Shown here: positions 515-47,566 of the stretch, piece by piece | Numbering within the stretch: the first letter of the stretch is position 1 | Layout of the letters: each line of letters starts with the position of its first letter | Origin: Metaphire vulgaris | Lineage: Eukaryota; Annelida; Clitellata; Crassiclitellata; Megascolecidae | Assembly (NCBI GenBank): GCA_018105865.1 | Contig: JACLAT010000043.1 | Span: 558,001-622,000, forward strand | Direction: 5' to 3' | DNA: 64,000 nt | Notes under the pieces: generated by a model | Database searches by the model: none | What the model was told of the DNA's origin: nothing | Seen by the model: only the letters and a program-made list of their open reading frames with translations | Made by a program: the position numbers and the translations under genes

Positions 515-14319
<13,805 letters not shown>

Positions 14320-18108: not shown

Positions 18109-18977
18109 CTAAGACTTATTCAAGAAAACAGTTACTACGCCATTAAATCCGCAGACAACGAGTTGCTTTTTTCCTTCGTCATAATAAAGTCGGTGAGGAT
18201 AAAGAGGATTTTTCTTTCCACTGTCTTCATCTTTCCCTTTACTTTTAGGAAATAGAATTTGATTAAAACGAAGATTTGAGTCCAAGAGAACTACTCTGTC
18301 ATTGTCAGAATCAGCCACAAACACTCGATCGCTTGAATCGATGCTGAGATAACCGGAATTGGAAGAAATCAATCGTTGTCCCTTATTTTGAGGCTGATAA
18401 TTGTGAACAATGGTTTTTCCATCACTCATCAGAGTCGTTATCGTCGACTCATCCTTTTCCTGTATGAACTGCAAAATGACGAAATTTCCAGTCGATGTTT
18501 CCACTGCATGAATAGGCATTTGAATATTTTGACAAAGAGAAATTAAAAGACAAAGTTGGGCACCAGGTCCATAGATTCTCAGACTAGGCGAATGTTTCCA
18601 ACTGACCATCAGTAACTGATCACTTTTTAACATCGATAGGCTTAATGGCTGAAAATCATCTGATAATTCTAACCATTTGATTTCGCTTTGATTTGTCTTC
18701 GAGTTTTGTTCACGTTTCCATACGCAGACATTAGGGCTACGATGAATGTCAAGAATGTAGAGAGCGTTTTCTTTCTCGCAGGAGACAATATCATATGCTT
18801 CTTTGATCTCTTTCAATTGGAATTTTCGTAGAAGAACAAACGGATATCGGTCATAGAAGATTTTCATATCTCCACCATAGTCTAAGCAATAGAACTCATT
18901 TCTCAATTTAGTAACTCCAACTGCTCCACCAAGTTCATCGATTGTTTCTAAAGATTCGTCGAATATACGAGGAAGAG
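18109..18977 (-). CDS. CARD gene exon 9: C-terminal NHL-like beta-propeller
   Basis: 869-nt terminal exon, acceptor CATTTGATTTCAG, stop TAG at 18111-18109. It encodes 288 residues of repeated beta-strand units of about 45 residues, such as NEFYCLDYGGDMKIFYD, ALYILDIHRSPNVCVW, DRVFVADSDNDRVVLLDSNL and QLVVCGFNGVVTVF. The V-F-V-A-D-S-D-N-D-R-V and Y-D-E-x-x-x-x-L-x-V signatures are those of NHL/six-blade propellers in TRIM-like and other invertebrate proteins, used to bind proteins or RNA. Intact over its whole length. A minus-strand AATAAA (17987-17982) lies about 120 bases past the stop. Confidence 0.75.
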
Positions 18978-21112: not shown

Positions 21113-21170
<58 letters not shown>

Positions 21171-21838
21171 TGCTATAAACAGACACTTGGCTTCAGCTTC
21201 ATAATGATTGAGGGCATCTGGGATACTGAGGTCTGCTATCACCTCCAGTCATATTCTGCTAACGTGTAATTACGTATAAATACGCATCAGAGATGTGCGG
21301 ATCGCGGATAGATCCGCCGGCGGATCCAGATCCGCATGAATTTCATGGATCCGCGGACCTCCGCGGATCCGAGTTCTAAAATGACTGGCGGATGCGGATT
21401 ATCCGCGGATCATAACAACTGGCAAAATTTTGACAATTATAAAATTTTTCGGCGTAAATCAATTGCCCGTAGATGAAAGGTTCGCATATTAAAAGTTTGC
21501 CGCATTATTTCGTTTAATGCATTTAGTTAAACATATTTCCATTTCAAACTCAAAGACGTACGGTCGTATCTTGGTTCGAGTCTTAAGTAAGTAAAACCAA
21601 GCTTCCTTGGCGCTGTCTGAAAGATTGACGCAGTGCACCTGCTTATTCACGATCGTTCATTCTGTGTAAAATCTACAGTTCGTAATCCGTAGTACGTGGT
21701 GGCCAAGGTTTTAGTTCCAGTTAGGCATTCGCAGAAAAGTATTTTTATGGAGGATGATAAACTACTATGCATATGGCTAATAAAGACTATTCCGGCAAAC
21801 TGATCACGAAAATTCAGGTTGGAGAACTCAACTGCAGC

Positions 21839-21936
<98 letters not shown>

Positions 21937-27900: not shown

Positions 27901-30900
27901 AGGTAGTGAATGACTATTGAAGAGAAAGAGGTTAGAATATGGATATACAGAAAGGATCTGAATATAAGTAGTGAGTTAGAAACACTTCAGGAGGGTGTGA
28001 GAAAGGAACGAGCAGCAATAGAACGGGTGCACGGAAGCTAGAAAGAGTGCAAGGAGATACAGGAAGGGTGCTAGAAGTATAGTTAAGGGTGCAAGAAGAT
28101 AGTTAATTCAGGTGACCTAGCCAAAAAACTATGGGCCAATACGCGCCAAGAATACCCCGATAGTGTTTGGACGTGGCATCCTGAAGAGAGGTCCAATAAA
28201 CACTATTATTGTTGAAAGACACGTAGGCTGGTTGAGAGTACAACTTTGGTAGGATCAGGCCAGTCGCCGGGTCGCTACAATCTTTTTATGTGGTGTTTGT
28301 CATTTTTCAGTCGTTTTAACTATTTCAGTTATTTATTTTTCAGTTACAGTTACAGTTAAAGTTATTGGTATTTTTCAGTTATAGTTACAGTTACAGTTAA
28401 CTGGTTTGGTATTTTTCAGTTAACTGATATTTCAGTTACAGTCACAGTTAACTGAAACCACACTGAGTCGGGAAAACTAAATTTTCACCGCTCGGGGCTC
28501 TCCTATACTAATAACCAATGGTTATAACCTCCAAACTCAGCACCGTCTTCGTACGTTTATCAGTAATTAAAACTTAATTAAAATTAGTACACATTACAAC
28601 ATTAATAAACTCTAATTAATTAAATTCAATTATTAAAAATAGACTAGTAAGTAACATTAATAACACCAGCAACTACAATTAATAATACTCTCGCCATCAG
28701 TGGCAGGCTGGCAACCGCCACAATAGTGCGGTGTCGGGTCAATTGTTCGCACGCCAATTGATCGACACAAATTGACCGCTCAAAATTGATCGCGTGGTCT
28801 ATTGGTCGCACGACAATTGACCGCTAGCCAATTGATCGCAATATCAGCGATAATTGTCAAATGAACGAAGCTTCGCACTCAAAATACCTTCTCAGCTAGG
28901 CTTATTTAAGATTAAAACTTGTTATCGAAGATTTTCTAATCTAATCTAATCTTAAACTTCTATAGCGCCACTTTCATATTTAAAACTTGTTATCGAAGAT
29001 TTTCTAATCTAATCTAATCTTAAACTTCTATAGCGCCACTTTCATAATGCACAGGAGCATCAACCGATGGCACACCAAATCCAAATCACTAAAGATCCAG
29101 GTCAAATCCAGGGTATCCGGCCGGACAAACGGGTGACAGTCTATGGTGGATAAGCCCGGTCAAAAAGATGGGTTTTTAATCTTGCTCTAAAAATTTGTAA
29201 AGAATTTGCAATGCGAACATGCTGAGGTAATGAGTTCCAGAGTTTTGGGGCGGCCACTGAGAAAGCACGAGAACCAAGAACTGTCCGAGTATGGGAGATG
29301 GAGAGAACTATTGCAGACGAGGATCTGGTCAAGTATTTGTTTGCTTGTACAGAAAGTTTTGAAAGAAGGTAACTGGGTTCCTTATAATAAAGTGTTTTGT
29401 ATACCTGAAGGCAGATTTTAAAGTCTATCCTTTCTTTAATTGGAAGCCAGTGAAGACCCCTTACGGACTGGGGTTATGTGCTCACGCTTTGGGGGTTTTG
29501 AAACTACCTGAGCCAATGAATTTTGAACTCGTTGGAGTTTAGCCAGGTTTGATTTAGAAATGCCAAAAAGAAGGAGTTGCAATAATCAAGACGACTGGAC
29601 ACTAAGGCATTTGCCAAAAGCATTAATGCAGGTTTATTCAGAAATTTCCTAATACGATACAAATCACGAAGGTGGTAGTGAGCTACTTTACAAATGCTAT
29701 TTATGTGAGTTGAGAAAGAAAGTGTGGAATCAAAAATTACTCCTAGATCTCGTGCAGAACTACTTACAGGAATAGTTGTATCGCCAAGTTTAAAAGCATT
29801 TATAGAATCAAATTTCTTGAGCTGGGGCTTTGTGCCTAAAAGTAAAAATTCAGTTTTAGCCGGGTTTAAAAGCAATTTGTTTGAATCCATCCAGGACTGA
29901 ATATGAGAGAATGCTTGAGAAATAGTTTCCAATGAAGATTCTGATGAAGACTTATCGAATGGAATAAAGATCTGAGTATCATCTGCATATAGGTGGTAAT
30001 CTAGGTGATGGTTTGACAGTAATGAGCCAAGAGGAGTCGTGTACAAAGTGAACAAGAGAGGACCAAGAACAGAGCCTTGGGGGACCCCACAATTTAAATT
30101 AGCTGATGATGAAAAGGTGCCATTTGTGCAGACAGACTGAGTGCGAGGACTCAAATAAGTAGTGAACCAGTGCAGTGCTGAATCAGAAAGACCAAACCAG
30201 TGTTGGAGACGGTGTAGGAGGATGGAATGATCCACAGTATCAAAGGCAGCTGATAGATCAAGAAGTATTAATGCAGTAACCTTGCCATCATCCATTGCAT
30301 TTATGATATGATCGTGGACAGAGAGAAGAGCAGTTTCAGTAGAATGATATCTACGGTATGCTGACTGAAAGTGAAGAAAAAGGTCATTTGAAGATAGATG
30401 GGCATGAATTTGATTTGCAACCACTCTCTCGAGAATCTTTGATAAAAAGTTCAAGTTGGATATAGGCCTGTAATTTGCCGATTTTGCCGATCAAATATTG
30501 AGATACGAGACATTGATACGCAATCTCACTCGTTGATTGCGTTGACATCTCCTTCGGACCATACAATGGACAGTTATCGTTGATATTGCGATCAATTGGC
30601 TAGCGCGCGATCAATTTTGAGCGGCCAATTTGTGTCGATCAATTTGCGTGCGAACAATTGACCCCGAACCCAATACTGCATACTTGGACATATTATACGT
30701 ATGATACGCGTATAATTCCAGGGTACGCAACGTACGGTCGAATCTTGGGTATGAACTCAGACTCGGAAGGAGTAGTCTATTCTGAACAGATTAAAGTCCT
30801 TTTAATAGCGACATGAGATTAAATAGAATGTATATTGATAAGAATAGACGAATGACAGAGAGATTTTCGAGTGATCTGAGCGATAATTTCTTATTTCAAT

Positions 30901-33900: not shown

Positions 33901-36367
33901 CATTATTACAAAATTAGCATGTCAATCTCTAGTAAATCGAGTTCCTATTTTCAATTTTAAAAAGAAGTGGAAACATCAGCTGAGTCTTCGGGAAACCACA
34001 ATTGGGATAAAAAGTGTTTTACCGAGAAAGTGAGCTGAGACAAAATCACTTACCAACTGCCCTCTTTTTCAGTTGATCAATGTCCAAGTTCATCCTTATC
34101 TCGTGTATACATTGAGGACTTTCTTCTCCTACAGGATAAAAAGAATGGCGAAGATATTTCGATTGTTGCAGCTTTTTAGGACCTGATGATTTGCACCAAA
34201 TCCATCGAACGAAATCTCTGTCTTTCATTGACCCCAGAATTTCACATCCAGAGTCTTTGAAGAAGCGAGTGATCTTTCCGTCTTTAATTAGACTTCGGCT
34301 GTTAATTTCAACTCTGGCAGAAGCTGAATCAAACAAATATCACCCGTCATCAGAGTTGTAATAAATACTTCACTGAAGTATTGAAATACTTTCATAAATA
34401 CTTAGTTCTCAGGTAGTATTTAAATAGTATTTAAATACCCAATAACCAGGGTAAGTATATAATTACTGGCAAATAAGTTTTAAATACCTGTTTAAATACT
34501 TGAATATGTATTTGACGCATGATTCGCCACAACCGTATTTTTGTGCAAAAGAAATGCTAGTTAAAATTATTTTAACAATGTCATTGTAGGCCTACTTAAT
34601 GTTTAACTGTCTCAAACCATCGGTTGTGGCAACTAAGTTTAGGGTATGCGAGCAGCAGCGTACGTGATGCAATGCGTTTAACAGGTTGGGCTGTTTATAT
34701 TTGTATTTTGTGACGACTGACGAATAGTAGAACGTCTTGCTCATGAAAATTGCAATAAATCAAAAGTATTAACATTTTAAAACCCCTTAACTGTGTATTT
34801 AACGGTAACTCAATGTAAAATGGACGGATATATCCGGGATCCCCAGTTAAGGGGTTAAATACATCAAAATGCTCTATGGTATTTAAATACTATTTAAATA
34901 CTCAATTTTGGATGGGTATTTCAATACTTTCTCAAATACTGGAGAGAGTATTTAAATAGTATTTAAATACTAAAGTATTTAAATACTTATTTAAATACTA
35001 AAGTATTTAAATACTTTACAACACAGTCCGTCATTGATAAACCGTTATACGATGAGCATGCAAGCACTACAACTCTGAAAGGGAAATTTTAAGTAATTTA
35101 GAGAATGGAAATTCGATGTACAATTTTATCATTTTAAATTTAAAAGAGACATTGAGCACAAATTCGTTATAAATTTGGGTAAATGGGACTGTAAAAAAGA
35201 GTTGGCCGAGAAGAAGAACGAAAATCAGTTCGAAATAACATAAAATAAATAAGAAAACGAACACAACAGTTAGTGAAATAAGGGAGGGAAGGAAGGAGAA
35301 TAAAAAGCGAGAGGCAAGAAAACAGAAGATCTGAGGCGAGGAAAATATGGAAAATCGAACGGACCACAACGGTCAACGCTTGAAAACTTGCCAATGATCA
35401 CGGGCAATGATACAACCGTAAGATATGAAGACCTTATCTGACTTCCTAGAAAAAAGTAATTCGAATAAATTAAACAACATTCTGTTCTTCCATTTCCCTC
35501 TTTGTCTGCTTCTTCTTTTCTATAGGAGATATGTATATTTGGAGACGCATTCCCCAAAAGACAATTGAGTGTCTGTCTAGTTTATACAGAATTCTGTTTT
35601 CACTAATTATCTTCAAATAGACAAGGAGGATTGGAAAATCTGATTATATAATAACAGGGAAAATAGAGGAACAAAGAGCAAGAAGAAGACATAAATGAAA
35701 TACACAGAAAGCCTAAGAGAGGATAGATTAATCAAATACAACATTGAACTGATAAGAATAAACATAAACATTCATGGTCGTTGACGTGACACTGCATAGT
35801 GCATGAAAAGATGAATTAACTATAATTAATAATACATATCATAAAATAAATTTGGGTTGACATTGAAAACGAAGAACATACTCCCACAATTTCTCATTGC
35901 TTTAGAAATCCAGCGACGTTCTGATAAGCGCAAGTAATCGCTGAATAGATTTGCAATGGTCTCATCTTTGTAATTCAGGATGAGTGAGAGATCAGTTGCT
36001 TTATTTGAAGCCTGTGATTTCTTCACAGTAGAATATTTTCTTGCAATAAGTGCACACTGAATGTCACTCAACAGATCTTGGTGTTTTAATCTGTTTGCTC
36101 CAGTTTTAATCTGAGACACATTCTCTTCAATGAACTGTCGATTGCTTTTCCAGAATGCTGAGATAGAGTTTTTCCTTTCGCAAATACCTACAACATAGAA
36201 ATGAAATTATGATCTAACCTTTGTCCTATTTTGCCTACTTGTGGCGCGTTACCAAACAAAAAACTTTTCGCCAAAGAGTTTACCAATTACCTAAAATATG
36301 GACATTAGAAATTAGCACATGTTTTAATTCCAGAGACACGAACTGTTTCCAGTATTGTGAATACAAT

Positions 36368-36423
<56 letters not shown>

Positions 36424-39027
36424 TCTAGAGCAATTATAAAATGTTCTTATTGTTTTCATTGATGTGCGAGATTTTCCTGCTGAATATAGGAGAGGACTGG
36501 TGATAAGCAATCAAAAAGAGTGACAAAAAAGAAAGAATCTATTTGTTTTACCTGACAGATAAGACCAACGATTTTCCTTGAACCGTCTTTCTCTCATTCG
36601 TTTGAACCAACATTTATTTATTTCTGCTAATTGTCTGAAGCCCTCCTTATCCTTTTCATCATCAATTTGGCTTTCTATTTGAATGAAGATAGCAAATGAT
36701 TTATGAATTATGACGTCTGTTACTTCTAATGGAAGGTCGTCTATCTGAAAACATTGCACCCATTCTGTATTTGAAATTAATTCGACGATGATTTAACTGA
36801 AATTGAAGTGTCTAAGTAAATTTAATCTCATGGAAATCTATTTTCTCGTTCTTTACTAAACAGCTGTAAAAGAACTGGAATAATGAACCCCACAGTAATT
36901 AATGTGCACTACTGTATGAGTAATGAACGTTTTCTTCTGAATCTTCAGGTAGAACTTTAAAGTTATGAGCAGCGATTCAAATAGTGGCATGCGACTACTA
37001 GTAGTAGGACTATATACTCAAATGGCGAACTCACTTCGAGGTTTTAAGCATTATATCAAATGATCGATATTAATGATTACACCAATACAGATGGAATTCG
37101 TCGGGCAGGTGATGAGAAAAGAGGAACTAAAGAACTTCTCAGTGGCAGCTATAGGTAAAGGAAAAAAATCGAAGGAATTATATATGTATATATATATATC
37201 ATATTAAGATCCTTATCTGTATGTCTCTCTGTCTGTTACCTTCAAGCGTTCTGATTGGTTGACTATTGGTAGCGGTTTAGACCGTTTAGTCCTTACGTCG
37301 CGATGCGTTGGTAGACGATGTTCGAAGACGACGTTGCTATTGGTAACAATTGTTCGTAACTGTTTGTTAATTAGTTCACGTAGCCAGCGATGCACCGTTG
37401 CGTAGCCTCAATACTATGTCCTGTGAGAACGGCGCGTCGCTAGAGAGAGGTGGGAGGGATGTTGTTATACTGTCGAGACTGATCGATCCACCTGTTTCTA
37501 GGTCGTCCCAGAGGTCGCTTCCAAGAGGAATCAGAGCGACGTCCAGATGGCAGGTCGACCTGATGCCATAGGACTCGGTGCGGAGACACATACTCTTCAA
37601 GACGCATACCAAATAGCCAGTGGCGGCTCTAGGATTTGGCAAGTGGGGGGCCGTTGGGGTGACAACTTCTAATCATGGGGGCCAACCATTTGTTGTTTAA
37701 TGTATGTAGCATTAAGTATAGGGTCCCAACTGGGGGCCTCTGGGGTCAGGCACTCAATGGGGGGGCACGGCCCCCTGCCCCCGGTGGAGCCGCCACTGCA
37801 AATAGCTCAATTCAGGCCTATAGAGCCAAATAGAGCAAGGCGACGTCTGGACAGCATTTCAGTTCACTGGGGAGGGGTGCTGTACGTTTGAGGATTTCGT
37901 TGTTTGTAATAAAGTCGTACCAACGTATTCCCATAGTAATCCGCAAGCTCCTTGTTTGGAAAGCTTCCAGCGCTCTCGCTCTTTAGCGAGTAAGGTCCAT
38001 GTTTCCGCTGCATAAAGAAGGATGGACAGAATGAGCGAACGGTACATGCGAATTATGAGATCAAGAGATAGTCCTCTATCCTTCCACACCTTGTTAACTG
38101 AAAACATGGCCGATGATGCTAGACCAATACGACGTCTTAAATCCTCTTTGCAGTGTCCATCAGATGTCTGGAGACTGCCTAGGTATAGGAAGCTTTCAAT
38201 TGATTCCACTGCCTCTCCGTCCATGTATATCGATGCGGGTTTACAGCCGGACCCAAGGTTTTGTAGGCGGGTCTTTTTCCATGAGGCTTTCATACCCAAG
38301 GGGGCAGAGGCTGTACTGAAGTCAAATAGGAACTCAGCGACCTGACCATAAAATGTGGTAGTGTCGTCAGCATACACTAAGTCCGATATGGCTTGATGAC
38401 ATGTGTTCCAGAATCCAGTCGTTAGATAAACAGAAAAGAGCTGGGCAAGTACACAGCCTTGTCGCGCCCCGGATGATATCCTGAACTCGGCAGTAGCATC
38501 ATGACCAACACGAACTTGATCCTTTGTGTTCACATATGTAGGTCGATGATCAGCCTTAGGAGAATGTCCGGTATGCCCTTAGAACGTAACGCCTTCCATA
38601 GCGCTTCGCGGTCGATTTAGTCGAATGCCGCTTTTATGTCCCGATAGGCTACGTTTTGAGGGCGGTCGACCTCACGATGCAGCTCAGACAGGAGTCTTAG
38701 AGCGAGAATGGCATATACCGTCCAACGCCCGGGAGTGAAGACTGATTGTTGAGATTGCTAGATTTTGAGGAGCAGAGGTAGGATGCGTGCTAGACCTTAA
38801 CCTGGCACTGATAGCAAGGTTATAGGTCGATAATTGCCGCATTCAGTTCTTGAGCCTTTTCCCTTGTATAGCATGATGATTATTGCATCCTTCCAGTCTG
38901 AAGACACATGACCAGTCCGCCATACCTGGATAGACATGGAGTGGAGGGCAGAACTGACAGGTCCTATTGTGGTTTTCACAGTGGTTTTCACACAGCCTTA
39001 CTTAGACTCCTAAACCACTTAAAATCA

Positions 39028-39083
<56 letters not shown>

Positions 39084-41805
39084 CGCAGATTTCAGGAGTT
39101 CAGGAGTTCTGCAGCACGTCCACTTTTTAGTTTCTTAATGGCAGAAATCACTTCGTCTGGAGAAGGCTCGTCAACGTTGGTGTCATTATCAGGTTGAGCC
39201 GTAAGAGCTTCTGTAGTTCATTAGATATTGTTCCTGGAGAAAAATTGGGAGTATTGGGGAAGTGTTCCTTCTATCGTTTATAGTGTCGCGACCCTTTTAA
39301 TTTTTTAATTCAATTCCCCACGATGTGGCTACCCCAGCCGTAAAATTATTTTTCGTTCATAGTGTAATCTGTTAAAAATAATAATGTCACGACAATTAAA
39401 AATGTTTGAAATCATTCTGATTCAATTGTCTGCATGTCTATTCTCGAATGACAATTATTGTAAAATAATTTTAACTAGCTAACAGTAACTACCAATGAGG
39501 AAATTTTGTGCAATAGGGCCTAACACGTTTTTCGCATCGTGAAAGATACAACCCCATATTTCCGATGGTCTAAGGCCAGGCACGTCGGAACGAATTTTCA
39601 GCAGGGGGTGCAGATTTTCTCAAGATAAAGTTGTGACAAGGTGAAACAATTCGTGTATGAAATAACCCTGACGAGCAACAAAAATTTCCTCACTAACTTT
39701 ACTTTATCTTCCTAAAAGCCTTGACAAACAAAAAAACGTCGCTAGCTTACTTCTTTATTTCACCCATACTAAAATCATTACATTGGCTTAAAATAACTGA
39801 ACGTATCCAATATAAGATAATAACACTTACACATAGCTCACTTCAGTCATCAAAACCTGTCTACCTTAGGTCACTATTAACCCCTCAGCCTCCTCGACCC
39901 ACACGTTCGTCATCTCATCTCACTCTGTCACGCCCGCTAAATCAATCATCCCTGAAAATTTGCAACCGTGCCTTCTCATATGCTGCACCTGAACTCTGGA
40001 ACTCGATCCCAGCTTCCCTTCGCACACTTGGACACTTTCAAACAGTAAAATCTCCTGAGTCCTCATTTCCTATAATTCCTGCACTATCCCCTCAAGTCTT
40101 CAGGTCTAAGCTTAAATCCTTCCTGTTTCTTAAATCATTTCCGCCATAGCTGCAACAACCTAGCCTCACTGCCCTTCGGATATTGACTATTGCCTGACTG
40201 ATATATAATATACCTTCCCCATAGCTATTTTAAGAGAGGCTGAGCGCCTAAGAATAAGCAGCAACTGTTGTGCTGCTTTCCAAGGCGCTATAGAAATCCA
40301 CGAGATTTTACTTTACTTACTTACTTACTTACTTTATTTCATCCTCCTAAAAGCCCTGACGAGCAAAAAAGGCCATCATCTCTCTTTCCTCTATTTAAAA
40401 ATCCTCACATGCAAAAAATTTAAAAACCAGCTTCCAGGGGTGCAGCTGCACCCTCTGCACCCCCACTTCCTACGGGCCGTAAGCGCTTCGGTTTGAGCCG
40501 TAAGAGCTTCTGTGTCTAGTTCATTGGATATTGTTCCTGCAGGATAATAGAAAGCATTGGAGAAGTGCTCCTTCCATCGTTCTAGAACCTCTTCTGTAGA
40601 ATTGCATGAGGCATGCAATCTGGTTTCTTGATTGTTGTAAATGATGGTGATTTACGATGTTCTCCATCAAGTGTCTGTATGGTCTTGAAAAGTGATCGTG
40701 TGCGACTATAAAAGAGATCATCCTCAGCCTCATCTGCCATACGTGACAGGTATTTATTGTATAACAATTAATATGTATTGTAAGTTTGTAACGTTGTTTT
40801 CAAGTGAACCGGGTGACAAAAAACCACGCGAATTGAGCAAAAACGACGATATCATAAGGCATCCTTTGTAAGCACACGTATTGTACGGTCATCTTTGGGA
40901 TCTGACTATCATCCATACGGATGACGTGGCCAATCCACGATGACTTTTTATTGCCAGCTAGAAGATGGTGTAGCCAGTGTTTATTCTAGGCCCTTTTGGA
41001 AGGATTCCACCCCAAAGTTTGAAAATTCCCCCCAAAATTTCTATATGTTGCATTGGGGGATGGAAAGGATGGAAATCCCCCCAAAGTGTGACGAGAGGGT
41101 TTTTTATTTTGGAGAGGGGAAAATATAAGACAAGACCATATTCAGAAGAGCATTTAAGTCAATGAAATTACCAAAATAAACGAAAGTAATAGCCTATATG
41201 AAGTTACCCTTGGATTTAATTGGAATTAAGATTATTTTGAATGTCAGATTCAAGTTCCTTACAATATATTGATACCAATATAAACTTTTCGTCTGTTTGA
41301 CATGAATATGAGTCAGAATATGAATGGTACTCACAGTTGTCTTCTCCATTTGGAAAATTTCCACTTGAACGGGAATCTCTGAAAAATTATAAAATGATAC
41401 AGATGTGAAAACGTGTTGCCTTTGGTTCGAATTAAAGTCAAATTAGGCATGCGCACTAAATTAAGAGATCAGGGCATAGATATAGGATAATGATTGGTCT
41501 TGTGTATACAGTATCTATTAGATAATTTAGATTAGCCTGCAGTATGAAATGTTGTCGTATTTATGGTTGCTGAAACTGAACAGCGCACACTGTTCAGTTG
41601 GCTTTTATTTCAAGAATCGAGAATAAGAAGACAAGAGAGGAGAATGCATGAACACAATTACTAAAAGACAGGAACGGAAAGAATGAGATTACAACGAAAG
41701 AAAACAAATTATGAATGAAAGAACACATGGAAAACAGAGGCTCTCACACGTCACAGATCCCACTGAGCCGTTCAAAACCGCATTACAGTATTATTATTGA
41801 TTCAC

Positions 41806-41886
<81 letters not shown>

Positions 41887-44800
41887 GACGATGATGATGA
41901 TGAAGATGATGAGGTTGCTAAAGAAAGAAAACAGCGGAGAATATTGTTAAACGTTACAGCTAGCCGACGTATAGCGACCTACGACATCATGAGGATGACC
42001 TGATGCATCTCGTTTCTAATGCACTCAAGTATCTTCAAGAACTAAATTATTGCAAACTGACCTATGGAATTTCAACCTCGAACTATTCTGAGTAAAGTAT
42101 TCCCAGAATTGATCACAGACTGAAGATAAATGCACTGCTATAATGGTGCTGTAGGGTTTGTAATTGATCGATATATTATTATGTTGAATGCCAGCAGATG
42201 CAGTGTCATGTAATGTGTAATGTAATAGAGTGTTTATATAGCGCCTCTTTAGTCTTAATTAAAAATCATTCAGAAGCGCTCCCACTGCGGTTAACGCTGT
42301 TGTCAAAGCCAAGGTCAGAAGCACAGTTGCCAGCGTTGATGACTCCTTAGTCGATGAAACGAAGAAAACTGTTTGTGCTTCTTGCGGTCAACTTTGCCAC
42401 AGACATGGCTGCAGTAATACGCCGATAAAACTAAACATACAGCGGATGGTTCCTTTTAAGGTTTAGGTTAGTTTAGTTAGTTAGCAATGAAGTCTTGATT
42501 TCAAGGGTAACAATCAGGAAACTAACTTCTAAACATTTGCCTTGCTTTGCTGCTGTCACTTTCATAGATTTTCACCGAAAGGACTTTTAAATTTATGTTG
42601 TGAGTCAATGCAACGAAGAGTTTTTCGAGGAATTTCTTCATCTCTGAATTAGCAATCATTTTGCACAGATCATTAAATTCGTTTTCTTTTCTGCAACATA
42701 TAAAGAGAACAATGCTTTGTCCTCGTTTTACGGCAATAATATTCAACTGCGCTGCGCTTAACACACGATTTGCCTGTTCTGCTGAAACATTCCTTTGTAG
42801 AAGTAAGTTTGTCACTTCGTCAACAATCTGTGTTTCTGTTTCATCTAGATTGTCGGTCTCCAGCGTTGCATGAACTCGTATGAGAGCTACAAAGCAAGCA
42901 TTTAGGAAACAGAAGTCATATTGTGTCTTAAATTGCTTTTACTAGCGACAATTAAGGTGCAATAAGAAGTTACTTTCATAGCCATTGCATGATGATGGTG
43001 TCGATGATGATGATGATTATGATGATTATGAGACGATGACGATGATGATGACGGTTATAATGATGATGAGAAACAGCACCAAGTGTAGCCAACTTGGGTA
43101 CAATTTGAGCAGGATACAACTGAAATCTTTGCAATCATCATCATCAGCAGCAGCAGCATCTTCTCGTGTAACTAGCGGAGGGCCGTTGCGTTGGCTCAGA
43201 ACCGTTTCCACGAAGATGGCATGAGTTGTTACTGTCCTGGCGGACTTCATAAAACCATCGGATAAGGATGGCGACCACGAGAACGTCTCCAGGATGACCA
43301 GATGACACATCAAGAATCCGATGAGCCGAGACGTCCTCTATCATCGAGACTGCAGCAACGTGGGCGAACAAAGTCCCAATCGGCGTTTGATTAGAAACTC
43401 GGCGAGCAGAGCTTGGGTAAGGACTTCTAGGTTGATGGTAAAGTCATTCCATCGAATTTTCATGATGCAGCGGATACTTTTTGTATGAAATGTCTCTATC
43501 TGCGAAGTTCTACAGAAAGAAGCGTTCATGTCTCTGCGCATAAAGTAGCACTGACATCATGTACAGACGAATCTTGAGTACTAGAGATGTTGATACGTTG
43601 GTCCATCCACATGTTGTTGAGGAGAAAATGGCTCATGAGGCGAGGGAGGTGCGTCGTTTGAATTGCCTATATGACGATTGGATACTGCCTAGATATACAG
43701 TATGAAGCAGGCCCGTACGAAGTGGGGATGCAGAGGATGCAGCTGCACCCCTTGGAAAAAAGTAGGGGGTGCAGCGCACCCCCTGAAGACGAGACTGGGG
43801 ATGCAGACCTGCACCCCTTTAAATTTTCGACTCAAAAATATATAGGAAATGACCTTTTTTGGCTTGTCCACAGAAAAATTTGACAACCAAACATCTCGCC
43901 TCGGAAAATCTGCACCCCTGCTAAAAATTCGTTCCGAAGTGCCTGGTTGAAGCTCTCTGTTAGTTCTATGGTTTTGCTGCCGATGGACATCGCTGAAGGT
44001 GGAGGGCCGCACCATAGGTTCTGTAACCGCATTTTCTTCCAGGAGGCCTTCAGACCGAATGTTGCGGCGGCGGCACTGAAGTCGGCGAGATATTTGACAG
44101 CATCCGCTTTAGGGGGCAGAAAGAGGGTGTAGTCATCGGCGTAGACCAGGTCGATAAGTATTGGAGGCCGACGTTAATTCTTGAAGCAGATGACGTATGG
44201 CTCAAGATCCAATCGATGGCGATGCAGAACAGACCAGGAGCGAGGAGTCACACCTGTCGGACCCCAGATGATGTCTTGAATTTTGAGGCGAGGTTTTGAC
44301 AAACACAGAAGGAAGGGTCTGTGTTTTAATGGAAATCGATAATCAGTCGAAGTTTGATGTCAGGCAAAGGATCAGTTATTGGCAGTATTTTAAAGAGTTG
44401 AGTCAGACAGTTCAGACATTATAAATTTTACCATCCGAAATGGTAAATGTTCACGATTTGTGTTAAAGCTGTCCTCCACTTGCAGCTACACACGCTCGAA
44501 GTCTATTTCGCCACTGTCTACCAAAGGCATTATCAATTCAATTGCGCGCTCATCCAGTCTAACCCGCTCCTCAGCAACGTGCTATCGTAGCTCGCTGACT
44601 TTGTTGATATTTGTTTTGCAGCCATTTTCTTAAAGTGCGCCGCAGGTCATGAAGTCCGCTGGGCTTATGTCGGGGACATTGGGTGGCCACAACTTTGTTG
44701 GGATGAAGTCTGATGTCTGGCGTCACAATTTTTAATAGTTCGACAGTATACCAATCCCTATGCGCCTGGGCCCCAGCCTGTTGAAACATATAAAGTAGTC

Positions 44801-47566
44801 CGAGTAATGCCTAATTTTGGACCAAAGATCTCTAGTAAGCAATATGCACCTATATTAGGCCTCCCTGTCTATTCACCTTGATGCCAGGATCAACAAAGTA
44901 AAGATTGCAAAATACGCGGCATGTGCTTTATTTTATAACTGCATTTATATTGCGCTGTTTCGTGAATATTTATGACATATGCAAATTAGAACCACATCAT
45001 CTACACTGTGAAAGCAAATGTTTTAGCGAACATAGCGACATGATTTTCATTAAAATAGGACTGCATGTGGAAAAGCTATAATCGAAATACAAAGTTGTCC
45101 TGACCGTGTATGCAAACAGTTTGTTTACCTCCTCTATTTTGCAAAATATCCGCTATGTGTTCTTGATTTGACTTCCTGAGACAGTTTATCAGAGTTTGAA
45201 AAGATTTTTGGCTTAATCTTCGTACCATCTCGAGTAATGCTTCATTTTTCTCGTAGTTAGTTGTTTTTGAGCGTAATAAATCTCTTTGTCTGTTGTTGAT
45301 TACTTGCTCAGAGTACAGCATGGATATAAGCTCACAATTATAATTATCAATAATATCAATCAATTGACCCAGATTAGCATCCAAAATTTCATGTTGCCAT
45401 TCTGTCAATGGCCAATTGTCACCAAATTCTTCGTTATACTCTAAAATTGCAACAAATGAGATGTGAATCAACTTCACTATGACGTTGTTTGCAATCGAAG
45501 GATTAGCAGCCATTTTAAAAATTGTACCTCTAGTAAAAATTCTAACTTTGCGCGTACCCCTAGGCCAGTGCAGGTCCGTCTTTTGCCAGTACGAGGCCCC
45601 TGACACCTGACGGCCTGCGGGGCTCCGGATAGATTGGATGTAGGGCCGTTTTGAGGCATAGACAAGATAGGCACGTGCCTAGGGCCCCGCGATATATGAA
45701 GGACCAGACGAGGGTCCAACAAGGTTGTTTCTTCCTGATGCTCGAAATAGTTGACCAGCAGAAAAAAGGTCATCACGTTTTTGGTGCTTGATCTTTCAAT
45801 TAATTTATCCTCTAAAAGTTTATAAGAAAAATGGGCAAAACATAAAAATGCTGAATCGCGCCGGGTCCCTAAGATTTGCAGGGTCCCTGGCACAGTGCCC
45901 AATTTCTAACACATAAAAACGGGCCTGGGCCAGTGGTGTGCAGAGGGGTGGTGGCCCCGGGCAACTATCAGATGGGGCATCCAAATGAGAAACCAAGTAT
46001 GGGTATGTGCTATACAAATTGCAAATTTTAAGAAAAAAGACAAGCAATAGGTTCTTGTTTGACCTGACGACGTTTTCCTGTTCGTAAATGACCTGACACA
46101 TTTTCGATATGCCGTACATATTGCGGAAAGTGATGGCTACGATTTTGAAACTTGAACAGCTTGGCGTCATGCATCAACAAACCTGCACACCAGAGACGCC
46201 ACTCCACTAGGCACGCTTACTCAGTTTTTGGCATTTCTTGTTTTTTTCTAGTTTTGCATAGGGTCTATTTTGGTTGGCTTAGAGAAAAGTGGCGACGACC
46301 TTTCTTAGTCCACGAAGGTCAGCCAGCTGCCAACCCATGCTACATGCGTCTAAGAGCTATATTTATTTCGCGTTCACAATCTTTTTGTCCAAGGAAAAAA
46401 AGGGACATTTACTGTTCGCAATAGCACCCTGTATTTACTATATTTGTTTCTTTCATTATTTTCTTACATTTTTAAATTCTTGTTTTCCTTCGCGAACCCC
46501 TTGCATGACAGCAGCTCGCGTACCCTTAGGAATACGCGTATCACCGGTTGAGAACCACGGACTACTAGCTTACTACTATGTATATTCGTTCTTGGTAAAA
46601 TAAAAAGGGCATCTTACCTCCTCCGCTCTTAATCCAGTTTACCACATGAGATTGAGAAGATTCAGAGAGTGCTGTAATTAAATCCATGTGTCTTTTCTCT
46701 TGGAAGATATAATTCAGCATCATTTTGTTAATTTTTACTCTTGCTGGCTCACATCGTATTTGCTCCAACTGATTGCGTGTTATTGCGTTTATTTTGAGGA
46801 GCTTTTCAAGAAGTCCAAATTGAGATTCAATGAGCTCTACGAGTTTTTCCCTTTGGTTTTCTATTTTCTGAATATCTGTATATAAAAATCAATTCAAATT
46901 TGCCACCTGAGTCCATTCAGAAGTTTATCAATGCTAATTCTATTCTATCGATGTTAAACAATAATTATCTCTTCCATAACAACACCAAAGTGTATCCTTA
47001 AATTCTTAACTTTAAAACTAGAACGCTTACATTAGTATCTATTGCATAATGTCAAATAAATTTTGAGCATGACTCTAGATCTTGCTGATGAAACCTATCC
47101 TATAGCTGTTTTGAGTGTGCTCCAGAACTGATCTTAATTTCATTTAAGCATAGACATATATAAAGGCTTATTTCATAAAATCAGAACCCACAAAATTACT
47201 GTAAATATTAGTAGCAGAAGGACATTTTTAACGTCCAAAATGATCGACTTGTGTTATAACTTGTGCTATCTGTATGAATTCAAAGTTAATAAACCATTCA
47301 ATTTTAATCTGCAGTAAGATCACTTACTCAGCACAATACCAGTTGGTATCATGGATCTATCATACACTGACTAAATTAGGCCTATTCTTTACAAGCACCA
47401 TGCAATATTTACTGTGTTGGTGAAGATACCAATGACCTATTGAATTTCATATTCATTCTTTCAATTTTAGGCGATTGATTCCTCAAACAAGTATCATATG
47501 CCACCAATAGACCTAAACCAGAATAATACCTTCAGTCTCTTGCTCACTGGTTACGTTGCTCGTCAT
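18109..47566 (-). CDS. CARD-CARD-(TRADD-N-like)-(F-box-like)-beta-propeller gene, nine exons
   Basis: Minus-strand model: 47566-47530, 46875-46618, 45440-45129, 42886-42527, 41378-41335, 36744-36552, 36187-35882, 34323-34054, 18977-18109. All introns are GT-AG, exon phases match throughout (mostly 1-1, one phase 0), and the sum is 2,649 nt, giving 882 aa. Domain order: CARD1 (about residues 20-97), CARD2 (about 120-202), a possible TRADD-N-like domain (203-322), a short linker, an F-box-like segment (338-401), two unrecognised exons (402-593) and an NHL-like beta-propeller (594-882). CARDs assemble death-fold signalling complexes; an F-box would recruit SCF ubiquitin ligase; a propeller would bind a partner. 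The combined role is inference. The weakest links are the exon 4 donor (GTTAGT) and the 15-kb last intron; the alternative is two adjacent genes. No transmembrane segment is seen, so a cytosolic location is likely. Confidence 0.6.
19107..19154. other. Perfect 20-bp palindrome with 8-nt loop
   Basis: GCGTATTAAACGTATAATAT (19107-19126), loop TTCCAATG, then its exact reverse complement (19135-19154). Lies just inside the last intron of the CARD gene. The remainder of 19155-20057 shows no recognisable gene. Confidence 0.85.
20058..21169 (+). pseudogene. L2/CR1-like LINE fragment with (AAT)n tail
   Basis: Plus-strand RT remnants in several frames: MPQGSVLGPLLFVLYVADVG (motif B), a damaged motif C region (SSHAYADMYRYTQ, second Asp lost), NRLALNPDKTELLWLSTS, LLGVLIDSSLTLVGHF, then LSRLDYSNSLLLGLPGNQIS and RDRYHWLRVLARLDYKRC. 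Ends in (AAT)n at 21114-21169. At least three frame breaks. GC-richer than the other copies. Confidence 0.8.
21288..22160. mobile_element. hAT-like MITE with CAGAGATGTGCGG ends
   Basis: Inverted ends CAGAGATGTGCGG and CCGCACATCTCTG, with many GCGGATCC-rich palindromic words inside. Flanked by ATACGCAT (21280-21287) and ATATGCAT (22161-22168), an 8-bp duplication with one change. Contains a long (AAT)n(ATT)n palindrome at 21840-21937. No transposase. Confidence 0.75.
21840..21937. repeat. (AAT)n(ATT)n palindromic microsatellite
   Basis: About 16 ATA triplets followed directly by about 16 TTA triplets, a near-perfect self-complementary block of about 98 bp inside the hAT-like element. Confidence 0.9.
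22170..22880 (-). other. Unassigned hydrophilic minus-strand coding-like stretch
   Basis: Overlapping minus-strand open frames (22874-22602, 22626-22066) encode charged, disordered sequence rich in Arg, Ser, Asp and Glu. It could be an ORF1-type remnant of a retroelement. No motif is recognised, and no gene is seen in 22880-23820 either; 23040-23300 contains GGGCCC-rich inverted pieces suggestive of another decayed DNA element. Confidence 0.2.
24684..25082 (-). pseudogene. Transposase-like fragment (DTTASNTG family)
   Basis: Minus-strand frame of 132 codons containing GIIKLLSVPKLYSGTDECMT and GICFDTTASNTGVKVEFM. The F-D-T-T-A-S-N-T-G motif, preceded by a G-T-x-x-x-x-x-A-x-x-x-x-x-x-E-W-G segment, occurs in a family of uncharacterised, transposon-derived proteins that I associate with invertebrate genomes; the Asp is plausibly a catalytic DDE-type residue. 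It is truncated at both ends with no upstream exon visible. Family placement is from memory and unsearched. Confidence 0.5.
25477..28465. mobile_element. Large hAT-like element with CAGTTACAGTTA-rich subterminal regions
   Basis: Ends CAGTCCGGTTTCAGTTAA and TTAACTGAAACCACACTG are inverted repeats. Subterminal regions (25490-25630, 28310-28460) are packed with CAGTTACAGTTA words in mirror orientation. Flanked by AGTCGGGG (25469-25476) and AGTCGGGA (28466-28473), 8 bp with one change. The 3-kb interior has only short open frames (for example 26218-26556, with CEYCSAKEQIVYLKC), and I cannot identify a transposase. Confidence 0.65.
27375..28279 (+). mobile_element. Possible solo LTR inside the hAT-like element
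   Basis: Stretch with internal AATAAA signals (27740, 28195) and an LTR-like end CCAGTCGCCGGGTCGCTACA. A TG start is ambiguous and I found no clean target duplication, so this is weak. Confidence 0.25.
28912..29047 (-). repeat. 68-bp tandem duplication of a LINE 3' end
   Basis: Two direct copies, period 68 bp, of AAAACTTGTTATCGAAGATT followed by TTCTAATCTAATCTAATC and TATAGCGCCACTTTCAT. On the minus strand this is GGCGCTATAGAAG plus a (GATTA)n tail, the 3' end of the LINE at 29141-30480. Confidence 0.85.
29047..30480 (-). pseudogene. L2-like LINE: RT nearly complete, C-terminus partly decayed
   Basis: Minus-strand frame 30454-29504 encodes 316 residues of intact RT: NFLSKILERVVANQIHAHL, SAYRRYHSTETALLSV, LLDLSAAFDTVDHSILLHRL (motif A), NCGVPQGSVLGPLLFTLYTT (motif B), YHLYADDTQIF (motif C, intact) and LLNPAKTEFLLLG. 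After a break the C-terminal RAFSVAAPKLWNSLPQHVR (29141-29332) follows. The endonuclease is missing (5' truncation near 30480). It is a different subfamily from 4821-6278, with a (GATTA)n rather than (AAT)n tail. Confidence 0.88.
30930..33486. mobile_element. Fold-back-like element C (ACTTAATCACGCG subrepeats) enclosing a LINE
   Basis: Left arm 30932-31095 has about 11 tandem units of ACACTTAATCACGCG (14-16 bp, varying at ACA[CTG]TTAATCAC and CGCG/CGTG). Right arm 33363-33486 has about eight inverted units (GTGATTAAGTGTCGC). The 2.3-kb interior carries an EN-RT LINE on the minus strand. No transposase was seen. Confidence 0.7.
31380..33210 (-). pseudogene. L2/CR1-like LINE: endonuclease and C-terminal RT, middle deleted
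   Basis: Minus strand. 33210-32251 carries the AP-endonuclease: NQLVVVLYIPGSQ, LLGDLNLHLDTPDDP, the PTHSVGYTLD motif and ILLDHSLITAAL (G-D-x-N, T-L-D and D-H catalytic motifs). 32160-31489 carries RT after the catalytic motif: RRLQLNASKTELAWFGSHA, RDLGVLFDNELTMKQHV, LSRLDYCNSVLAGLPKSTL and LHWLPVQSRIQHKLC. RT motifs A to C are absent, so an internal deletion removed them. Tail near 31270 is a (TAATG)n. Confidence 0.8.
34054..34323 (-). CDS. CARD gene exon 8: uncharacterised
   Basis: 270 nt, phase 1-1; acceptor TTTGTTTGATTCAG, donor GTTG|GTAAGT, both strong. It encodes 90 residues with Trp/Cys/Lys-rich strands (KDRDFVRWIWCKSSG) and a helical end (LDIDQLKKRAVG). No family is recognised. It may be the first blade or an N-terminal cap of the propeller that follows. 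A hAT-like MITE begins 27 bases upstream of the acceptor. Confidence 0.55.
34351..35026. mobile_element. hAT-like MITE, ATTTAAATAC-rich
   Basis: Ends CAGAGTTGTAATAAATAC and AGTATTTAAATACTTTACAA are inverted; the interior is filled with AGTATTTAAATACT palindromes. Flanks CCCGTCAT and TCCGTCAT form an 8-bp duplication with one change. Lies in the intron just upstream of CARD gene exon 8. Confidence 0.65.
35882..36187 (-). CDS. CARD gene exon 7: uncharacterised helical region
   Basis: 306 nt, phase 1-1; acceptor TTCTATGTTGTAG, donor GGGA|GTATGT. It encodes 102 mostly helical, basic residues (for example NSISAFWKSNRQFIEENVSQ and TIANLFSDYLRLSERRWIS). I do not recognise a family. Without the donor the frame would run only about 18 codons further to a stop at 35826, so this exon could instead be a terminal one. 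Confidence 0.5.
36370..36421. repeat. (TA)n microsatellite
   Basis: About 25 TA units in the intron between CARD gene exons 7 and 6. Confidence 0.95.
36552..36744 (-). CDS. CARD gene exon 6: F-box-like segment
   Basis: 193 nt, phase 0-1; acceptor GCAATGTTTTCAG, donor GTCAG|GTAAAA. It encodes 64 residues with the F-box pattern: DDLPLEVTDVIIHKSF (L-P-x-E-V-x-x-x-I), then FRQLAEINKCWFKRMRER (L-x-x-[IV]-N-x-x-W) and an Arg-rich tail. F-boxes bind Skp1 and bring substrates to cullin-RING ligases. The insertion in the middle (IESQIDDEKDKEG) makes the match looser than usual, so the call is tentative; a generic helical linker is the alternative. Confidence 0.45.
37198..37375 (+). mobile_element. 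Helitron 5' fragment
   Basis: Plus-strand match to the 5' part of the Helitrons at 6867-7278 and 54457-54959 (ATATTAAGATCCTTATCTG, CTTCAAGCGTTCTGATTGG, GGTAACAATTGTTCGTA). The hairpin and CTAG end are missing. Confidence 0.7.
37380..39280 (-). pseudogene. RTE-like LINE reverse transcriptase (minus strand)
   Basis: Minus strand, decayed. SDWKDAIIIMLYKGKGSRTE and YRPITLLSVPG (38991-38797) open RT; GARQGCVLAQLFSVYLTTG and LVYADDTTTFYGQVAEF (motif C intact) follow at 38500-38330; then IESFLYLGSLQTSDGHCKED, LLYAAETWTLLAKERERW and, past a MITE insertion, a GRPRNRW-type end near 37480. Stops and frameshifts show it is dead. A (TTA)n run at 39031-39081 and a 37618-37798 MITE interrupt it. Confidence 0.75.
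37618..37798. mobile_element. hAT-like MITE with perfect 8-bp TSD
   Basis: Ends CAGTGGCGGCTCTAGGATTT and GGTGGAGCCGCCACTG are inverted, flanked by perfect CAAATAGC copies (37610-37617, 37799-37806). Inserted into the RTE-like LINE. Confidence 0.8.
39573..40486. mobile_element. GGGGTGCAG-type MITE, copy 1, with LINE fragment inside
   Basis: Left end AGGCACGTCGGAACGAATTT, right end GGGGTGCAGCTGCACCCTC through TTCCTACGGGCC. The same ends occur at 43704-43949 in inverse orientation. A LINE 3' fragment (about 39770-40330, plus) lies inside, flanked by TTTATTTCA-like copies. Confidence 0.6.
39770..40335 (+). pseudogene. L2-like LINE C-terminal fragment
   Basis: Plus-strand frame ends at 40149: ILKSLHWLKITERIQYKIIT, SKPVYLRSLLTPQPP and RAFSYAAPELWNSIPASLR, the standard end of L2/CR1-type RTs, followed by the 3' signature AGGCGCTATAGAAATCCACG and a (TTAC)n tail. 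Nested in the MITE 39573-40486. Confidence 0.75.
40486..40850 (-). pseudogene. RTE-like LINE linker fragment
   Basis: Minus strand: SRMADEAEDDLFYSRTRSLF, then EEVLERWKEHFSNAFYYPAG and TISNELDTEALTA, the linker before RT. A shorter second copy of the last part is at 39130-39270, so two fragments of the same family lie near each other. Confidence 0.6.
41335..41378 (-). CDS. CARD gene exon 5: short linker exon
   Basis: A 44-nt exon between a good acceptor (TAATTTTTCAG) and a very good donor (AACT|GTGAGTACC). Read in phase 1 it gives IPVQVEIFQMEKTT and ends in phase 0, exactly the phase needed by exon 6. No domain can be assigned to so short a piece. Its reality rests on the two splice sites and the phase match. 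Confidence 0.5.
41807..41886. repeat. (TTA)n microsatellite followed by (GAT)n
   Basis: About 27 TTA triplets, then GACGATGATGATGATGAAG. Produces a spurious poly-Tyr/poly-Asp open frame. Confidence 0.95.
42170..42300 (-). repeat. LINE 3' end with (ATTAC)n tail
   Basis: Minus strand: GGCGCTATATAAACACTCTA followed by TTACATTACACATTACATG. This is only the 3' end of an L2-like element, like that at 48236. Confidence 0.5.
42522..42886 (-). CDS. CARD gene exon 4: possible TRADD-N-like domain, with in-frame stop just past donor
   Basis: Acceptor TTGCTTTGTAG. The exon encodes about 120 residues starting LIRVHATLETDN, with an alpha-beta pattern and the central motif GQSIVLFICCRKENEFNDL followed by a helix (MIANSEMKKFLEKLF) and a final strand. 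This recalls the ferredoxin-like N-terminal domain of TRADD and related domains in animal NLR-like proteins (G-S-[IV]-V-x-x-[IL] followed by a helix); I hold that only moderately. If the GTTAGT after 42527 is used as donor, the exon is 360 nt and phase 1-1; if not, translation stops at TAG 42524-42522, giving a 323-aa protein. Confidence 0.6.
43340..44160 (-). pseudogene. RTE-like RT split by a MITE
   Basis: Minus strand: YADDYTLFLPPKADAVKYLA (motif C intact), FGLKASWKKMRLQNLW and TIELTESF reach 43950; the reading resumes at 43700 with a YLGSIQSS segment and, further on, FHTKSIRCIMKIRWNDFTIN. Same family as 37380-39280. The interruption is the MITE 43704-43949. Confidence 0.7.
43704..43949. 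mobile_element. GGGGTGCAG-type MITE, copy 2, with TSD
   Basis: Inverse-orientation copy of the ends of 39573-40486 (AGGCCCGTACGAAGTGGGG ... CGTTCCGAAGTGCCTGG). Flanked by TGAAGC on both sides (43698-43703 and just after the element near 43950), a 6-bp target duplication. Confidence 0.65.
44390..44800 (-). pseudogene. Tc1/mariner-like transposase C-terminal remnant
   Basis: Minus strand: FQQAGAQAHRDWYTVELLK, then a decayed SPD/DLxPxD region, LRRTLRKWLQNKYQQSQRA, and WRNRLRACVAASGGQL. Q-x-G-A-x-x-H and the R-x-R-x-C-V-x-x-x-G-G end are typical of DD(D/E) transposases of the mariner/Tc1 group. Frameshifts and the lost Asp after FQQ (Ala instead of Asp) make it non-functional. Confidence 0.6.
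45129..45440 (-). CDS. CARD gene exon 3: second CARD
   Basis: 312 nt, phase 1-1; acceptor GTTGCAATTTTAG, donor GGAG|GTAAAC. After about 20 linker residues it encodes a second CARD: LGQLIDIIDNYNCELISMLY for helices 1-2, EQVINNRQRDLLRSK, then the NEALLEMVRRLSQKSFQTLI region and a QEHIADILQ end. The last motif (x-E-H-I-A-x-x-L) is a standard CARD helix 6. CARD2 is only loosely similar to CARD1, so any duplication is old. A hAT-like insertion lies immediately upstream, in the intron. Confidence 0.8.
45505..46562. mobile_element. hAT-like non-autonomous element, copy 2
   Basis: Shares TTTTAAAAATTGTACC and GCGCGTACCCCTAGG on the left and CACCGGTTGAGAACCAC on the right with the 12612-13325 copy and typical hAT ends (CAGTGGTTCTCAACC type). 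Further nested pieces occur at 45565-45980. It occupies most of the intron between the two CARD exons. Confidence 0.55.
46618..46875 (-). CDS. CARD gene exon 2: first CARD
   Basis: 258 nt, phase 1-1; acceptor TTTATATACAG, donor GGAG|GTAAGA. The 86 residues fit a caspase-recruitment domain: helix 1 EKLVELIESQFGLLEKLLK, then the loop and helix 2-3 motif AITRNQLEQIRCEPARVKIN, helix 4 MMLNYIFQEKRH, helix 5 LITALSESSQ and helix 6 HVVNWIKS. The spacing, the I-x-x-E-P turn and the final (E/S)-x-x-x-H positions are the family's usual ones. The symmetric 1-1 exon is what a shuffled domain exon would look like. Confidence 0.78.
47530..47566 (-). CDS. CARD gene exon 1 (start codon)
   Basis: On the minus strand ATG at 47566-47564 opens MTSNVTSEQETE, followed by one base and the donor GAAG|GTATTA. 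The leftover phase-1 G joins the next exon to make an Asp codon and continues the frame smoothly into CARD1. This is the only in-phase ATG exon found just upstream of CARD1, so it is chosen as the start. A 5' non-coding exon further upstream is possible. Confidence 0.6.

Follow-up and report, generated by a model that had tools for sequence, protein, structure and literature searches.

A nine-exon gene model with a CARD-CARD head and an NHL-type propeller tail in Metaphire vulgaris, one of a modular, expanded family

The window analyzed here, the whole 64,000-nucleotide stretch of Metaphire vulgaris DNA, carries on its minus strand two CARD exons and, far downstream, an exon for a beta-propeller. 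CARDs assemble cell-death and immune signalling complexes and nucleate filaments, and propellers bind ligands. Do the two ends belong to one gene, and what kind of protein would such a gene encode?

The nine-exon model, the CARD head and domain X

The first-pass annotation had described nine exons with canonical splice borders and consistent phases that sum to 883 codons, and an exact rebuild bore this out. The gene runs on the minus strand from position 47566 to position 18109 and comprises 883 codons including the stop; its internal borders are all AG/GT, the phases are consistent and every exon is open. The features are as follows.

47530-47566, minus strand: exon 1, start codon plus 12 codons (MTSNVTSEQETE), phase 1 out; defined by reading frame and donor only
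46618-46875, minus strand: exon 2, CARD 1; Pfam CARD at E 1.2e-4 and 22.4 bits, slightly below the cut-off of 23.9; same exon in paralogues
45129-45440, minus strand: exon 3, CARD 2; Pfam CARD at 7.3e-10 and 39.2 bits (cut-off 23.9)
42527-42886, minus strand: exon 4, domain X (X1), a conserved alpha/beta domain; 58% identity to P0002 and 82% to the C4 copy
42522-42524, minus strand: in-frame TAG in the exon-4 splice donor GTTAGT (AGAA|gttagt), the stop of the open frame 42522-42938
41335-41378, minus strand: exon 5, a 44-nt linker exon; phase 1 in, phase 0 out
36552-36744, minus strand: exon 6, F-box-like segment (IDDLPLEV...LAEINKCWFKR...W); 52 genome matches among those listed, window included
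35882-36187, minus strand: exon 7, a conserved segment and perhaps a third CARD in degenerate form; 50 genome matches among those listed
34054-34323, minus strand: exon 8, a conserved segment and perhaps another X domain that has diverged; 48 genome matches among those listed
18109-18977, minus strand: exon 9, C-terminal NHL-type beta-propeller and stop; matches NHL propellers in the PDB, has 159 matches in its own genome and is 31% identical to P0002

In a Pfam scan of exons 2, 3, 4, 6, 7, 8 and 9, each taken alone, exons 4, 6, 7 and 8 gave no match of weight. An eight-exon model without exon 5, with an acceptor at 36764 or within CAGATAG, was rejected since the CAGATAG acceptor is not kept in the copies on C4 and C43, whereas both exon 5 and the acceptor ahead of ATA, in phase 0, persist there. 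In two loci on C21, exon 5 was not found, and further exons lie in its place.

Elsewhere in the window, two open frames on the plus strand (10398-10715 and 14002-14319) resemble what we take to be a fucolectin/F5-8C-type lectin (ENLALGRPATQSS...) and are perhaps exons of a neighbouring plus-strand gene. Four frames look by eye like reverse transcriptases of non-LTR retrotransposons (4767-5711 on the plus strand; 29504-30490, 31489-32250 and 62057-63400 on the minus strand), and two of them sit, again by eye, within introns of the gene.

The head belongs to the CARD superfamily: exon 3 lies above the Pfam cut-off and exon 2 slightly below it, and the related protein P0002 reaches 66.5 bits over two stretches. 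The overall architecture given in the first-pass annotation is supported; what it overlooked is the large family around the gene and the standing of exon 4 as a conserved alpha/beta domain of its own, here called domain X. An AlphaFold2 model of domain X, made from two sequences, has the order beta-alpha-alpha-beta-beta-alpha-alpha-beta-alpha (pLDDT 56.6) and matches generic ferredoxin-like folds, ACT domains included; by sequence, no match of weight was found in the PDB. According to the main text of Kaur et al. (eLife 2021, PMC8195603), TRADD-N is RRM-like and ACT-related, with two kinked helices and four strands, and its beta2-beta3 turn bears a small-residue-Ser motif. At the predicted beta2-beta3 turn of the X exons, a Ser is invariant (7/7), with a Gly two places earlier, or a Cys in one of them. 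Exon 4 possibly has a TRADD-N-like topology, as far as the model goes, and we do not name it TRADD-N. Pfam TRADD-like_N (PF20694) gave no match in the seven X exons, and the two places in the genome that it does match are not among the X exons read. A TRADD-N chain is absent from the fold matches listed for the model, an absence that excludes nothing.

One gene or two neighbouring genes

The TAG in the exon-4 donor lies in letters that are identical in three copies (the window, site 42522-42530; C4:20.33M; C43:374k). Since it is conserved, a retained intron behind exon 4 could yield a short CARD-CARD-X product. The same TAG would also close the first of two neighbouring genes, that is, a CARD-CARD-X gene ending at the TAG and an F-box-like-propeller gene starting from the ATG of exon 5 (MEKTT-IDDLPLEV). 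Exon 5 decides between one gene and two because it holds this ATG, which opens into exon 6 in phase 0. Five copies of the exon were read (window, C4:20.33M, C43:378k, C4:20.448M and C43:8.5k). The 44-nt length, the AG acceptor, the GTGAGTAC donor and the open frame are kept in all five, whereas the ATG is present in two and lost in three. A first exon would not need the acceptor, length and donor that persist while the ATG is lost, which argues that exon 5 is most likely an internal exon.

What lies upstream of exon 5 bears on both readings. An X exon precedes it in 4/5 copies: in the window, at C4:20.33M, at C43:374k (the end of X only, as the stretch read ends inside it) and at C43:12.9k (diverged, E 5.6e-12). 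The short stretch read upstream of the fifth copy contains a processed gene, or what looks like one landed in the family: a long intronless frame (L038:3-1931, plus strand) just upstream of exon 5, which we take to resemble methionine aminopeptidase 2. In favour of two genes, no CARDs were found ahead of two cassettes read upstream: the 8.9 kb ahead of exon 6 in the C43:12.9k copy hold no CARD and only the diverged X, and the 5.7 kb ahead of the C4:20.45M cassette hold neither CARD nor X. With the conserved TAG and the phase-0 ATG on one side, and on the other the loss of that ATG in most copies, the X exons ahead of exon 5 and a protein that joins head to propeller, we regard two genes as unlikely.

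The protein in question, P0002 (783 amino acids), was the sole relative returned by a protein search with residues 200-882; used as the query, it found itself alone (7991 candidates sharing most words were scored). In one open frame it has the layout CARD-CARD-X-long helix-NHL, and it exceeds the Pfam cut-offs for CARD, in two stretches, and for NHL. Over exons 2-4 the identity is 54% (167/307; exon 2 48%, exon 3 55%, exon 4 58%), and the alignment ends at the codon that is split by the exon-4 donor. The propellers are 31% identical. Since the frame is open across borders at which the genomic copies read have introns, we infer that P0002 is a transcript (contigs up to 2713 bases). Between head and propeller it has not exons 5-8 but presumably a coiled coil, modelled at low confidence as a long helix; prediction without relatives gave a pLDDT of 35.6 and was uninformative. 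When the window was searched for a TRIM-like coiled coil of the sort that P0002 seems to contain, none was found. Together, the P0002 homologue, the family copies and the constraint on the exons support one protein with two CARDs at its N terminus and a propeller at its C terminus, as first proposed, and the exons would be joined in RNA.

The middle cassette, the propeller and the constraint on the exons

The genome searched comprises 728,303,522 bases in 246 contigs. Of at least 151 matches to the middle cassette, the 150 listed and used here are 52 for exon 6 (window included), 50 for exon 7 and 48 for exon 8. Among them, exon 6 is followed in order by exons 7 and 8, on its own strand and with steps of at most 13 kb, at 45 of 52 places, and these roughly 45 genome places lie within a wider CARD-X set with other tails. 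The seven exceptions all rank in the bottom eight exon-6 matches by similarity (39-52%), and there exons 7 and 8 may be too diverged for detection. No counterpart of exons 6-8 was found beyond this genome in the searches made. Among the matches listed, a Pfam-level CARD lies within 20 kb ahead of just three exon-6 places, the window being one; this count used 24 of the 150 CARD matches scored (out of 639 candidates), namely those on exon-6-bearing contigs other than C8, plus one on C18.

Exon 6 had been read as F-box-like. In an alignment of nine copies, I1, P5, D10, I12, S16, L39, W46 and K56 are invariant, and in most copies they lie within LPLE and LA-V--CW. By eye the consensus, LPLE--D-I ... 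LA-V--CW ... W, does look F-box-like, but the Pfam F-box matches only one of the nine copies (E 0.16; not the window's copy) and no F-box protein is among the PDB matches of the exon-6 profile. An F-box in exon 6 is thus plausible but unproven from the sequence.

If exon 6 is not an F-box, the product could still be one protein, with exons 6-8 as a helical linker plus a diverged CARD and X, and would act purely as a CARD scaffold that the propeller gates. The two near-identical C21 loci bear on this. Each carries on one strand CARD, CARD, X, CARD, an X-like exon, an exon-6 homologue, a CARD-like exon, an X-like exon and a propeller, and each would be one gene. The homology of exon 6 is clear (0/1000 shuffles as good). 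For exon 7 against the C21 exon, a fraction of 0.026 of 1000 shuffles was as good, and for exon 8 it was 0.017 of 1000. At the exon-7 place, these loci hold a CARD-like exon (0.015 of 200 shuffles against the CARD-2 profile; no Pfam CARD), and at the exon-8 place an X-like exon (0/1000 shuffles against window exon 4; 0.095 against the X profile). These C21 exons speak for the scaffold, as do the lack of an F-box match in the window's own exon 6, the single weak match among nine copies, the absence of F-box proteins among the PDB matches and the separation of the F-box-like motif halves by about 15-20 residues (by eye). However, the LPLE...W spacing and the conserved residues of the nine copies look F-box-like by eye, a RING/B-box exon lies behind X at another locus, and exons 7 and 8 themselves gave no significant match when scored against the CARD and X profiles. 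An identity of exon 7 as CARD and of exon 8 as X was therefore not claimed, all the more since exon 7 scores equally against the C21 X1 (0.023 of 1000 shuffles). We treat the pure scaffold as a serious possibility, short of the favoured one.

The propeller of exon 9 scores 15.2 bits with the Pfam NHL model, below the cut-off of 20, and matches NHL propellers in the PDB, designed and natural, over about one repeat (PknD 4.5e-6, Thin 1.1e-4). The NHL cut-off was passed by the relatives P0002 (26.0), L014 (30.9) and L011 (24.8); the C21 propeller L018 gave no match. Among the matches listed, a propeller lies downstream of exon 8 on the same strand within 20 kb in 44/46 cases. For the same 46 places, the controls gave no propeller upstream on the same strand and four ahead on the other strand. 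This pairing used 46 of the 48 exon-8 matches and 125 of 150 propeller matches listed, and second pieces of split matches were dropped by hand. When the 150 scored CARD matches (of 639 candidates) were paired in the same way, 30 had a propeller downstream on the same strand within 20 kb, against 6 upstream and, on the other strand, 3 ahead and 0 behind; these are counts of matches, not genes, and on C74, C32 and C29 two or three matches share one propeller.

A further copy, at C4:20.323-20.345 Mb, has CARD1, CARD2, X, exons 5, 6 and 8 and a propeller in order on one strand, with an exon-7 match located between exons 6 and 8 (genome match only). Its identity to the window is 52% in exon 2, 53% in exon 3, 82% in exon 4, 62% in exon 6, 76% in exon 8 and 73% in the propeller. 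In comparisons of exons 2, 3, 4, 6, 7, 8 and 9 with two copies (C4 and C43:4-22 kb), dN/dS was below 1 in 10/10 cases, with values of 0.15-0.53 outside the propeller (0.15 for exon 3 against the C4 copy) and of 0.72 and 0.80 in it. The propeller values are the highest of the exons compared and still below 1. The sensor role given to the propeller in the first-pass annotation is reasonable. These values also bear on whether the model could be a degenerate family member or a gene-prediction artefact in repeat-rich sequence. An intron of about 15 kb ahead of exon 9 is transposon-rich by eye and some copies elsewhere bear stops, but the window exons are all open, the ratios indicate constraint throughout and the propeller follows exon 8 in nearly every case listed; we consider degeneration or artefact very unlikely.

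Between the window and the C4 copy (L035), dS is 1.3-2.1 in the CARD exons, near saturation, and 0.2-0.4 in exons 4, 6, 8 and 9. Given this contrast, head and tail do not share one simple history, a point against the single-gene reading, and an exchange or replacement of heads suggests itself.

Layouts around one head, proposed role and known systems

CARDs ahead of the cassette were read in the window, in the C4 copy and, in a different layout, in the two C21 loci only, and the head also stands in front of other tails. In L007+L029 (G000:C50:56048-68999), CARD-CARD-X exons are followed by an exon with a RING and two B-boxes and then by a Kelch exon; the borders from X to Kelch fit phase 1 as read, and an ATG lies inside the RING exon. 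The locus is possibly a CARD-TRIM-Kelch gene, and possibly a separate gene starts from the ATG of the RING exon. At further C50/C23 loci, what comes after the head exons is a CARD, then a coiled-coil-like frame and then Kelch (L021+L022), or else Kelch (L008+L030; CARD 2 and X, not CARD 1, in the stretch read). On C8 (G000:C8:0.23-1.93 Mb), there are many CARD and NHL-type propeller matches, several of them same-strand pairs, with no exon 6-8 among the matches listed; this cluster is probably another branch of CARD-propeller genes. The gene in the window is one member of a modular, expanded family, which has the look of fast-evolving, mix-and-match immune receptors.

Our favoured reading, which we hold to be probable, is a single gene of the order CARD-CARD-X-exon 5 linker-F-box-like-two conserved segments-NHL propeller, whose product most likely acts as an immune sensor-adaptor. 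The faster-changing propeller would bind a ligand (microbial, viral or danger-related), ligand binding would release the head, and the two CARDs would then nucleate CARD assembly and recruit partners that carry a CARD, for instance caspases or other adaptors. The middle cassette would set the outcome, and this branch would possibly recruit an SCF-type ubiquitin ligase via the F-box-like segment. Since exon 6 lies behind X just as the RING/B-box exon does in L007+L029, recruitment of a cullin ligase by this branch suggests itself, and that locus lends the ubiquitin coupling some indirect support; taken by itself, the ubiquitin step is somewhat doubtful. For the family at large we tentatively propose exon-shuffled receptors that share one CARD-CARD-X head, while two further parts, linked mainly through phase-1 exons, can be exchanged: the ubiquitin-ligase module (RING/B-box or the F-box-like cassette) and the propeller (NHL or Kelch). 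Dozens of sensors would arise in this way, and they may turn ligand binding into CARD assembly and ubiquitination.

If this holds, dozens of propeller-tailed CARD proteins would amount to an extensive repertoire for innate sensing that does without NLR ATPases, and one head set beside RING/B-box, F-box-like, Kelch or NHL would be a natural experiment on the coupling of death-fold assembly to ubiquitination. The family also informs how exon shuffling builds receptors, and it raises the questions of where in the tail diversifying selection acts and how far head and middle work independently of the tail.

Several known systems resemble this gene in part. TRIM-NHL proteins (TRIM2/3/71 type) share the C-terminal NHL propeller and the possible coupling to a ubiquitin ligase, but here CARDs and X stand in front, and neither RING nor B-box was matched in exons 2, 3, 4, 6, 7, 8 and 9, each scanned alone. 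F-box proteins of the FBXW/FBXO-Kelch type likewise have an F-box ahead of a propeller, the segment here being F-box-like; we know of no CARDs in that class. CARD inflammasome adaptors and NLRs are alike in their CARD head and putative sensing tail; the NACHT/NOD ATPase, a feature of NLRs, gave no match in the same seven exons, each scanned alone.

Another such system is TRADD-N, with its lineage-specific expansions in marine invertebrates. According to the main text of PMC8195603, expansions with a Death-fold, TRADD-N and a variable tail, some with beta-propellers, occur in sponges, cnidarians, bivalves, brachiopods, echinoderms, hemichordates and amphioxus. Like the gene in the window, they have one or more N-terminal Death-fold domains, a small alpha/beta domain and a variable tail that can be a beta-propeller, and they share large copy numbers, fast domain shuffling and nearby retrotransposons. 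They differ in their head, which is mostly DED, and in their propellers, which where named are of the WD40 kind; that main text mentions neither NHL nor F-box, and domain X here has no Pfam TRADD-like_N match. No description of the exact order with an NHL tail and the exon 6-8 cassette was found within the literature searched. The first-pass remark that the arrangement was not recognised is fair for this order, but the broader Death-fold, TRADD-N and propeller plan had been published in that paper. The gene structure is real, and its exact domain order, apparently new, varies a plan that such expansions had already made known.
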